Below are positions 663 to 5,868 of a stretch of DNA of 64,000 nt, in pieces. This DNA comes from Chloroflexota bacterium (GTDB lineage Bacteria > Chloroflexota > Anaerolineae > Promineifilales > Promineifilaceae). The stretch spans positions 1-64,000 of the forward strand of contig JAJRYT010000169.1 of assembly GCA_024275635.1 (NCBI GenBank), given 5' to 3'. The number at the start of each line of letters is the position of its first letter. The first letter of the stretch is position 1. A program made the translations under genes and the position numbers. Under the pieces are notes generated by a model. The model was not told the DNA's origin, did not search any database, and saw only the letters and a program-made list of their open reading frames with translations.

Positions 663-1913
663 ATGAGCAAAAGATATTTAATTGGTGCGTTGTTAATCGT
701 CGTAATTTTGTTAGCGGCTTGTAAGGCAGAACCTGGTCCGGAAGGGCCGGTTGGCCCTGCTGGTCCGGCGGGGCCCATGGGGCCGCAAGGGCCAACCGGC
801 GATGATGCTGTCATCAGCCGGCAGTACGTTGGCTCGGAGAAATGCGGCAACTGCCACGAGGAACAGTATGCGGAATTTATTCTCTCCGGTCACCCCTATA
901 AGTTGACCAAGGTAGAGAATGGCGAACGGCCCCGCTATCCCTACGATGCTATCACCGGCGGCGTCAAGAACCCGCCGGAAGGGTACACCTGGGATGATAT
1001 CACCTACGTCATCGGCGGGTACGGTTGGAAAGCGCGCTTCATGGACAAGGATGGCTACATTATTACCGGCGATGAAAATGCGACAACCCAGTACAACTTT
1101 GCTAATCGTACGGTCGGCAACCAGGCGGGTTGGGTCGCTTACCACGCCGGTGAGCAAAAAGCTTATACTTGCGGTACCTGCCATACCACTGGCTATAATC
1201 CGGACGGCCACCAGGACGGCTTGGAAGGAATTATTGGCACTTGGGCCGCCCCTGGCGTGCAGTGCGAAGCGTGCCACGGCCCGGGCAGTCTCCACGCCGA
1301 AGACCCTTACGGCATTGAAATGAATGTGGAGTATGCTTCCCAATTGTGCGGCGAGTGCCATGTGCGCGATAATCCGGCGGAGATCGACGCCAGCGGCGGG
1401 TTTGAGAAGCACCATGAGCAGTACGAAGACCTATACAACTCCAAGCATTTCGCTATTTCTTGTGTCACCTGTCACGACCCCCATGCCAGCGCTTTGTACA
1501 GCGATGATGAAGTAAATCCGAATAAGGGGATTGTACAGCAGTGTGAATCGTGCCACTGGGAAAATGCGGCCGTGCAGAATAACGAGAAGCATGAAAACCT
1601 GGCCTGTACCGATTGCCATATGCCGCCGCTGGGGAAGTCGGCCCAGGCGAACCTGGATATTTTCACCGGGGATGTGCATTCACACCAGTTTGCCATCAAT
1701 ACCGACCCCGATGCGCCGCAGTTTTATGACGACGGCGCCAAAGTCATGCCTTATCTGACGCTCTCTTACGCCTGCCAACACTGCCACAATGGGGAAGTGA
1801 ATGCGGTCAAGGAATTGGACGAACTGGCGGCTGACGCCAAAGGGTATCATACGGAAATTCTACCTACGGCAGAGCCGGTTGCCCCAGAAGCAACAGCGAC
1901 GCCGACGCCATAA
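663..1913 (+). CDS. Octaheme c-type cytochrome lipoprotein with collagen-like stalk
   Basis: Predicted secreted electron-transfer protein of 416 aa. Residues 1-20 form a lipoprotein signal ending in the lipobox LAAC (Cys20). Residues 25-45 are seven uninterrupted Gly-Pro-X triplets, a collagen-like stalk. The rest carries eight CXXCH haem motifs, starting with CGNCH at about residue 61 and followed by CGTCH, CEACH, CGECH, CVTCH, CESCH, CTDCH and CQHCH. The arrangement resembles multihaem cytochrome c554/c-prime-like proteins. The C-terminus is Pro/Ala/Thr-rich. A full-length paralogue, interrupted by a stop, lies at 4567-5868 on the other strand, and a NapC-like cytochrome follows at 2264. 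A role in moving electrons across or outside the cell envelope is inferred; the partner and substrate are unknown. Confidence 0.9.
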   Translation: MSKRYLIGALLIVVILLAACKAEPGPEGPVGPAGPAGPMGPQGPTGDDAVISRQYVGSEKCGNCHEEQYAEFILSGHPYKLTKVENGERPRYPYDAITGGVKNPPEGYTWDDITYVIGGYGWKARFMDKDGYIITGDENATTQYNFANRTVGNQAGWVAYHAGEQKAYTCGTCHTTGYNPDGHQDGLEGIIGTWAAPGVQCEACHGPGSLHAEDPYGIEMNVEYASQLCGECHVRDNPAEIDASGGFEKHHEQYEDLYNSKHFAISCVTCHDPHASALYSDDEVNPNKGIVQQCESCHWENAAVQNNEKHENLACTDCHMPPLGKSAQANLDIFTGDVHSHQFAINTDPDAPQFYDDGAKVMPYLTLSYACQHCHNGEVNAVKELDELAADAKGYHTEILPTAEPVAPEATATPTP

Positions 1914-2263: not shown

Positions 2264-3997
2264 ATGAAGAGACTACGTCCTTTCTCATGGCTAAAACAGT
2301 TTTTCTTTCCCCCGGCAGGGACGCCGCGTTGGCTTCGGATCCTGCCTTATGCTTTTATGGGCGTTCTGTCTGCGATTGCGCTTTACTATGGGGCGCAGGG
2401 ATGGGATTACGCTAATTCTCCCCAATTCTGCGGAACGACCTGCCACACTATGCCGCCGGAGTACAGCGCTTACCTGGTCTCACCGCACGCCCGCGTTTTG
2501 TGCTCCGAATGCCATATTGGGCGCGATGTTTTAACCGAACAATTCTCACGAAAAGCGGGCGATATGCGCCATGTCATTGATCTGGTGGCCGTGAATTATG
2601 AATATCCTATCTTTGCTAAGGAGATGAGACCGGCGCGTGAAACTTGCGAGCGTTGTCACTTTCCGGAAAAGTTTTCTGATGACAGTCTGCGGGTGATCAG
2701 TCACCGGGTAAGCGATGAAGCGAACACTAAGGAGGAGACGACGCTGATCATGAAGACTGGCGGCGGCAGCGAACGGGAAGGGCTGGGCCGGGGAATCCAC
2801 TGGCACATCGAAAACGAAGTCTGGTATCTGGCAACGGATCCGCTAGATCAGGAAATTCCTTATGTGCGGACGGTAGATGCCGATGGGGAAATCAAGGAAT
2901 ATTACGATGTCGCTTCTGGTCTGACGCCAGATGACGTGGCGGGTTCAACGTTGGAGCGGATGGATTGTATTACCTGCCATAACCGGATTACCCATTCTAT
3001 GCCTGATCCGGGAACGGCCGTTGATCAGGCGATGGAGAAAAAGTTAATAGCGGGTGATTTGCCTTTTATGAAACAAGAAGCGGTTAAATTATTGTCGGCG
3101 TCCTACCCGAATCAGGAAACGGCCATGTTAGAGCTAACCGCTTTGGTCGATTATTATCAAGAAAATTATCCGGAAATTTATGTTGGGCGCGCGGATGAAA
3201 TCCAACAGGCGGTTGACGTCCTGCAAGATATTTACAACCAGATAGTTTTCCCGGATCAAGAAGTGGACTGGCAGACACATCCGGACAATCTGGGTCATAT
3301 CGCCGCGCCTGGTTGTTTCCGTTGTCATGACGGCAAACATCTTACCAGTACCGAAGAGGCAATTCGCCTGGAGTGCAATATCTGCCATTCGGTTCCGGTG
3401 GTTCATGATCCGAATGCCCTGGTAACGAATATTGAAATTATTCAGGGGCCGGAACCGACGTCTCATATCCATACCAGTTGGATCGCGCTGCATGGTCAGG
3501 CGATTGATATTTCGTGCGCTGCCTGCCATGAGCCAAACGATCCCACGGTGGATTACACTACGTTGGAAGGAAGACCGCCCAGCGATGGTTCTTTTTGTGG
3601 GAATTCTGCCTGTCATGCTTCCGAATGGACGTATATTGGCCTTGATGCGCCGGAAATGGACGCAATTTTGGATCGCCAGCTCTATCTACTGCTCAATACC
3701 AGCCCCTATTTGATGGATGGGGAGCCGCGGACATATGAAGGGGTGTTTAAGGCGATGTTTGACGGCCGTTGCACCTTCTGCCATGCCGGCCTTGAGCCTA
3801 AAGCGGGACTGGACTTGAGTAGCTATGAGATGATCATGCAAGGGGGCAATAACGGCCCGGTGATTATCCCCGGCGACCCGGACGCCAGCCTGCTCATTGA
3901 GGTGCAATCCACCCGCAAAGGTCACTTTGGTCAAGTGTTGGATGATGAATTGGCCGCGCTGCGTGATTGGATTGTTACCGGCGCGCCGGGAAATTAG
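2264..3997 (+). CDS. NapC/NirT-type multihaem cytochrome c, membrane anchored
   Basis: 577-aa membrane-anchored cytochrome. One transmembrane helix (about residues 25-45) is followed at once by CGTTCH-TMPPEY (56-61), the CX3CH signature typical of the first haem of NapC/NirT quinol dehydrogenases. Eight further haem-type motifs are visible: CSECH, CERCH, CITCH, CFRCH, CNICH, CAACH, a non-standard CX4CH (CGNSACH) and CTFCH. The last lies in a C-terminal segment resembling the planctomycete-type cytochrome c domain. It probably takes electrons from the quinone pool and passes them to the outward-facing octaheme lipoproteins next to it. That role is inferred from family and context. Confidence 0.87.
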   Translation: MKRLRPFSWLKQFFFPPAGTPRWLRILPYAFMGVLSAIALYYGAQGWDYANSPQFCGTTCHTMPPEYSAYLVSPHARVLCSECHIGRDVLTEQFSRKAGDMRHVIDLVAVNYEYPIFAKEMRPARETCERCHFPEKFSDDSLRVISHRVSDEANTKEETTLIMKTGGGSEREGLGRGIHWHIENEVWYLATDPLDQEIPYVRTVDADGEIKEYYDVASGLTPDDVAGSTLERMDCITCHNRITHSMPDPGTAVDQAMEKKLIAGDLPFMKQEAVKLLSASYPNQETAMLELTALVDYYQENYPEIYVGRADEIQQAVDVLQDIYNQIVFPDQEVDWQTHPDNLGHIAAPGCFRCHDGKHLTSTEEAIRLECNICHSVPVVHDPNALVTNIEIIQGPEPTSHIHTSWIALHGQAIDISCAACHEPNDPTVDYTTLEGRPPSDGSFCGNSACHASEWTYIGLDAPEMDAILDRQLYLLLNTSPYLMDGEPRTYEGVFKAMFDGRCTFCHAGLEPKAGLDLSSYEMIMQGGNNGPVIIPGDPDASLLIEVQSTRKGHFGQVLDDELAALRDWIVTGAPGN

Positions 3998-4566: not shown

Positions 4567-5868
4567 TTACGGTGTTTCCGATAATCCTTCATGATAGCCA
4601 ATAGCCATCGCTTGCAGTTCCTCATCCGTCTTCGCCGGGGCTACACCGCCATCTACATGGCAGTGACGGCAGGCAAAGTCCAGCGAAATCTGCGACAGCG
4701 CCACTTTGCCATCTTCACTGAATTGACCCACTTGCATCGGATCAATAGCCATCAAATGGCTGCGAATATCGCCAGTAAACATCTCCGCGTTGCCCAGGGC
4801 GCTCTTGACGATGCGCGGCATATGACAGTCAATGCACTCGACATTGTTTTCGATATGCGCCGCATTTTTCTGAGTCTCAGCATTCTGGAAGTGGCAGTTT
4901 TCACAGCTGGTACGGGTCGTTTGCAGCCCTTCCTTCCGTAACTGGACTACCCCGGTATGCGGGTCGTGGCAGGTAACACAATCGAGCGTAATATGCTTGC
5001 TCTGGAATAACTCCTCGTATTGTTCATGGTGACGAATAAAGCCGCCAGAAGCATTGACCTCTTCCTGCGTGCCGCGGAAGTGGCAATCGCCACATGCGGC
5101 TGCATCACGGTCCACTTTCATTTGCCAATTGTAGGGGTTTTCTACGTGCAAACTGCCAGGGCCGTGGCACTCTTCACAACGGATGCCAGGTTCTGTCCAG
5201 GTGCCGATCATCCCTTCCATGCCGTCCTGATGGCCTTCTGGGTTATAGCCGGTGGTGTGGCAGGTGCCGCAGTTATACGGCTTTTCTTCACCAGGATGAT
5301 ACCCTACCCAGTTTGTGCCCATATCCAGGTCGGCATTGTATAGGTTGTACTGGGTGGTCGCATTTTCGTCTGCTCCGGTAATGATGAAGCCATCATGGCC
5401 GATGAACCGCGCCTTCCAGTTGTAGCCGCCGATGACATAGCTGATGTCATCCCACGTATATCCTTCTGGCGGGTTGGGAACCTCAGTGAAAGGGTATTCT
5501 GGCGGTTGGCCGTCAACCACTTTGTTCAGTTTGTACGGGTGCCCGCTTTTCATGAATGCATCGTAATTTTCCTGATGACATTCGGCGCAGGATTATGTAC
5601 CAACGTATTCGGGCATTATGGCGACGGCTTCACTGGCAGCGGCAGCCTCACCGGCCGGCCCTGCTGGCCCAGCAGGACCTTCTGGGCCAGCGGGGCCGGC
5701 CGGCCCAACAGGACCTTCCGGGCCGGCGGGGCCTTCTGGGCCAGCAGGACCTTCCGGGCCAGCAGCGCCGGCACAGCCGGCAAGGGCCAGCATGAAGACC
5801 AAAACTAATGTAATAAACCAAAACTTTTTCATGTAAATCCTCCTAGGAAGTTGTAAAAAATTTACCAA
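4567..5868 (-). pseudogene. Octaheme cytochrome lipoprotein with collagen stalk, interrupted by one in-frame TAA
   Basis: Paralogue of the gene at 663. The first part (5868-5593) encodes a lipoprotein signal with LAGC (Cys20), twelve Gly-X-Y triplets (residues 25-60) and ...MPEYVGT, then TAA at 5595-5593. The same frame continues without a break through SCAECHQENYDAF and on to 4567, giving eight CXXCH motifs in all and a full length of about 433 codons, similar to the intact copy (416 aa). In the intact copy YVGS is followed by Glu (YVGSEKCGNCH), so one base change (GAA to TAA) explains the stop. The ORF track's start at 5553 (MKSGHPYK) is an internal Met that would lack signal, stalk and first haem. 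Either a young pseudogene, a sequencing error, or recoded; the first two are more likely. Confidence 0.8.

Follow-up and report, generated by a model that had tools for sequence, protein, structure and literature searches.

A single in-frame TAA at codon 80 interrupts an octahaem lipoprotein cytochrome gene in the 64,000-nucleotide stretch of Chloroflexota DNA analyzed here (the window), and it exemplifies a genome-wide trait of the source assembly, in which about 22 similar stops are found in unrelated genes on many contigs. With a probability of roughly 0.55, we favor the reading that the TAA is a consensus change without function, arising either as a base error or because the consensus of a mixed population took up a minor broken allele. 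The stop would have been generated by one G-to-T substitution in the consensus sequence of this draft assembly, the normal gene of the species would be intact and encode a membrane-anchored octahaem cytochrome on a collagen-like stalk, and the intact base would presumably be carried by reads or by the population.

The interrupted gene has 421 codons followed by a terminal TAA at codon 422, and its features are collected in Table 1. All eight CxxCH motifs (codons 82, 188, 219, 247, 285, 310, 333 and 388) lie downstream of the in-frame TAA, which precedes the first of them by two codons. Beyond codon 80 the frame remains open for 341 codons, free of frameshifts, and is 70-74% identical to intact orthologues; a stop-free run of this length with eight haem motifs at such identity is more than chance would give. 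The original prediction of one TAA splitting an octahaem cytochrome gene, with some 340 codons and all haem motifs retained in frame past it, was thus confirmed on the minus-strand frame 5832-4567. It had also traced the stop to one G-to-T change on the basis of a GAA in the paralogue; the paralogue does have Glu at the aligned codon but encodes it as GAG, and it is the GAA in the orthologues of two congeners (G001 and G002) that bears out the single change. An AlphaFold model of the cytochrome was weak (mean pLDDT 46).

Table 1. Coordinates of the interrupted cytochrome gene, its parts and its neighbors in the window.
Feature	Position	Strand	Remarks
Octahaem lipoprotein cytochrome gene, interrupted at codon 80	4567..5832	-	Pfam Cytochrome_C7, Cytochrome_C554, MtrC/MtrF II/IV, Collagen
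In-frame TAA, codon 80	5593..5595	-	GAA in G001 and G002; GAG in G024 and the paralogue
N-terminal 79 codons: signal peptide with lipobox LAGC (Cys20) and collagen-like stalk	5596..5832	-	
Collagen-like segment, 15 G-X-Y triplets, codons 19-63	5644..5778	-	Such a segment in every orthologue
C-terminal part, open past the TAA	4567..5592	-	Holds all eight CxxCH
First ATG past the stop	5551..5553	-	Product of 328 aa without signal peptide or first haem motif
Strong Shine-Dalgarno AGGAGG ahead of the ATG	5839..5844	-	
Intact octahaem paralogue	663..1913	+	56% identical; eight CxxCH; 8 G-X-Y triplets; GAG at the aligned site
NapC/NrfH-like N-terminus fused to a multihaem/PSCyt1 part	2264..3997	+	7 CxxCH; between the two octahaem genes

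A search for the family in 52 genomes gave a list of 54 matches with E values up to 1e-30, and among these listed matches the stop is present in one, the window's own gene, and absent from the other 53; no relative in this set has a short form of the cytochrome. All 29 of the other orthologues compared span the stop site with a similar signal peptide and a collagen-like stalk of 10-17 triplets. The possibility that relatives use a different gene start and lack the upstream part therefore failed, the N-terminal part being common to the orthologues, and comparison with the closest relatives found them intact across the site. Of the columns downstream of the stop that do not vary among the other orthologues, the gene retains 73 of 73, and of the near-invariant ones 99 of 101, in agreement with the expectation that the remainder of the gene is conserved. 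Pairwise dN/dS in this region against the G001 orthologue is 0.095, not far from the 0.03-0.07 of intact pairs, with dS near saturation. By these measures relaxed constraint past the stop was not found, as would be the case for an error or a very recent event, and since the sequence is undecayed, a real stop would have to be very young. Both the occurrence of the stop in a single listed match and the lack of decay argue for the consensus change.

Further support comes from the assembly itself (hereafter G000; 5.7 Mb in 253 contigs, 93.65% complete). Stops were sought in 1.63 Mb of G000 (434,000 codons) and 0.66 Mb of two congeners (181,000 codons) in two ways, by coding-like sequence that continues in frame to either side and by homologous alignments that run across the stop. 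The homology scan was limited to genes whose codon usage is coding-like, and the stop count excludes gene boundaries, antisense frames and sites that probably encode selenocysteine. In the G000 sample, about 22 single stops (13 TAA, 8 TAG and 1 TGA) interrupt the frames of genes that are otherwise intact, and 3-5 frameshifts were also seen, compared with 0 to at most 2 breaks in the congeners (p ~0.01). The G000 breaks are spread over more than 10 contigs and affect unrelated genes, including those for glutamine synthetase, PDH E1-beta, MazG, HdrA, a histidine kinase, ABC proteins, a PBP and GlnRS, where the names were read from translations and those of GlnRS and the cytochrome alone were checked against family models. 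For example, an in-frame TAG lies in the sole full-length GlnRS of G000 (G000:C192:20750-22327), a gene that is intact in three relatives. No DNA motif common to the in-frame stops was seen around them.

Interrupted coding sequences have been described in Mycobacterium smegmatis, where they make up 1.4% of coding capacity and are in part real and in part sequencing errors (PMC1852416). There, as in G000 (~2% of genes), genes that are intact in relatives are broken at one position; however, the confirmed M. smegmatis errors are not miscalls, which that program could not find (PMC1852416), whereas the G000 breaks are mostly single-base stops with a Glu bias.

Possible, though in our estimate the less probable account, is a real and very recent nonsense mutation that created a new null allele or pseudogene in the lineage, tolerated because the paralogue remains, and left a short lipidated stalk stub without the haem head. 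The paralogue is intact and only 2.7 kb away, and the residue aligned with the stop is unconserved across the family (E, A, G, D, Q, P or T), indicating that the site itself is not critical. Authentic interrupted genes do occur in bacteria, 45 of 73 resequenced cases in M. smegmatis having proved real (PMC1852416). Against such a mutation stand the lack of any trace of decay past the stop and the many like breaks in G000, among which the hit in the sole GlnRS is hard to square with a tolerated fixed loss. Nor was a mutator defect found: loss of MutY/MutM is rejected as a source of the stops, as mutY and fpg are both intact in G000.

Some evidence against a consensus change comes from the ancestral codons of the stops. 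Orthologous codons were retrieved for the G000 in-frame stop sites, and 19 were resolved: 12 of the 13 TAA sites (Glu 9, Gln 2, Gly 1, so that TAA does not stand for Glu throughout), six of the eight TAG sites (Gln 2, Tyr 1, Ser 1, Leu 1, Asp/Lys 1) and the TGA site (Arg). The Glu-to-TAA changes affect the cytochrome, glutamine synthetase, PDH E1-beta, one ABC protein, the kinase, HdrA, MazG, a methyltransferase and a solute-binding protein (45% identity), at window position 5593 and the G000 loci L110, L124, L128, L136, L139, L198, L214 and L225. Based on codon usage, 7-13% of one-step nonsense changes would be expected to fall in this class, compared with the 9 of 19 observed (p 3e-6 to 2.5e-4, uncorrected for the choice of this residue once the data had been seen). 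Within the G>T/C>A nonsense changes, GAA accounts for 9 of 10-11, where 39% is expected (p 0.001-0.005). A plain G>T/C>A process at this rate, including simple G-to-T error, would be expected to give about 14 more stops, arising from GAG, TAC, GGA, TCA, TCG and TGC (GAG>TAG, TAC>TAA and GGA>TGA among them), but only 1-2 were seen, and GAG-to-TAG and TAC-to-TAA changes are nearly absent. Also counting against the consensus change, though as a weak test, missense changes of the G>T or C>A type are not in excess in 27,000 orthologous codons.

The same bias would follow if the organism occasionally decoded UAA as Glu, whether by leaky termination or by a tRNA-Glu that suppresses ochre codons; full-length cytochrome would then be made, and GAA-to-TAA changes would do next to no harm. 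Both Glu excesses point in this direction, as does the presence of glutamine synthetase, PDH E1-beta, MazG and HdrA among the affected genes, but we consider this explanation unlikely. No UUA-anticodon tRNA was found among 45 tRNA loci of the assembly, which lacks ~6% of the genome, and both tRNA-Glu are ordinary. TAA ends 523 of 1213 sampled G000 genes (43%), similar to the 50% and 46% in two congeners, and in the G000 sample TAA is followed by a second stop no more often than other terminators are. In addition, about half of the stops, those at Gln, Tyr, Ser, Arg or Gly, are unexplained by Glu insertion, and the Glu excess was spotted by eye ahead of testing. Reassignment of UAA in G000 is excluded on present evidence, and sporadic or weak suppression with Glu is unlikely. 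Still more doubtful is an early, ambiguous stage of stop-codon capture, in which UAA would be the main stop yet also encode Glu, with GAA-to-TAA changes persisting in conserved genes that would include the cytochrome. It has been suggested that readthrough events in prokaryotes, detected as in-frame stops with conserved surroundings, are frequent and mostly short-lived (PMC7918605). The cytochrome stop likewise lies within an otherwise constrained-looking gene, but that study (PMC7918605) leans on stops common to orthologues, whereas ours is found in a single genome.

Two tRNA-related observations were made alongside. A degenerate tRNA-like sequence at G000:C241:1395-1461 (L106:101-167; 31.8 bits, no ARAGORN call), followed by a terminator-like hairpin, has the anticodon GAC and is thereby rejected as a suppressor tRNA. 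In-frame TGA codons occur where homologues have Cys in DUF3179-like, HdrD/MvhD-like and MBL-fold genes, and in an OsmC-like gene where the residue is probably Cys (G000 loci L113:17775, L122:1744, L139:6294 and L189:5342); together with a tRNA-Sec on contig C206, these sites suggest probable selenoproteins. Selenocysteine-type recoding of the cytochrome stop is rejected, since the stop is a TAA, with Glu at this position in relatives.

Of the three origins envisaged in the original prediction, a recent event or an assembly or read error is supported by the lack of decay, the intact orthologues and the numerous comparable breaks elsewhere in the assembly. Nothing speaks directly for readthrough: TAA is the commonest terminator, a UAA-reading tRNA was not found and RNA structure 3' of the codon-80 TAA is unremarkable (z -1.6). 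Least probable of all is a functional short product, either a lipidated collagen-like surface peptide, for which lipobox, stalk and ribosome-binding site are intact but which is at odds with a strictly conserved head and with the short form occurring in no relative, or a separate C-terminal protein from internal starts, which from the first downstream ATG would lack the signal peptide and first haem motif, making haem attachment outside the membrane impossible.

The best solved relative of the cytochrome by profile is PDB 6i5b, which we take to be OcwA (E 6.8e-23), matching in the N-terminal haem region over ~185 of 526 residues. OcwA is a cell-surface multihaem terminal reductase of Thermincola potens (PMC6703420). 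The octahaem protein resembles it as a surface cytochrome, but OcwA is larger and the match starts past the collagen-like segment. Haem content, lipid anchor and this relative suggest that the cytochrome may act in extracellular electron transfer, and the product of the fused NapC/NrfH-like gene is a possible quinol-side partner. A G-X-Y stalk of 8-17 triplets separates the lipid anchor from the haem head in every member compared (both octahaem genes of the window, L005, L006 and L023-L049), and no published octahaem lipoprotein cytochrome with a collagen-like stalk was found in the literature.

By itself, the cytochrome stop carries little weight; it adds another case to the interrupted genes of draft genomes. 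With roughly one broken frame per 50-60 genes in G000, claims of gene loss drawn from this assembly need reads. The intact protein, whose architecture of a collagen-like stalk bearing an octahaem lipoprotein head is retained throughout a whole family, is more interesting than the stop. Lastly, if the excess of Glu at TAA sites proves true in reads and proteomes, it would constitute a bacterial case of ambiguous UAA decoding.
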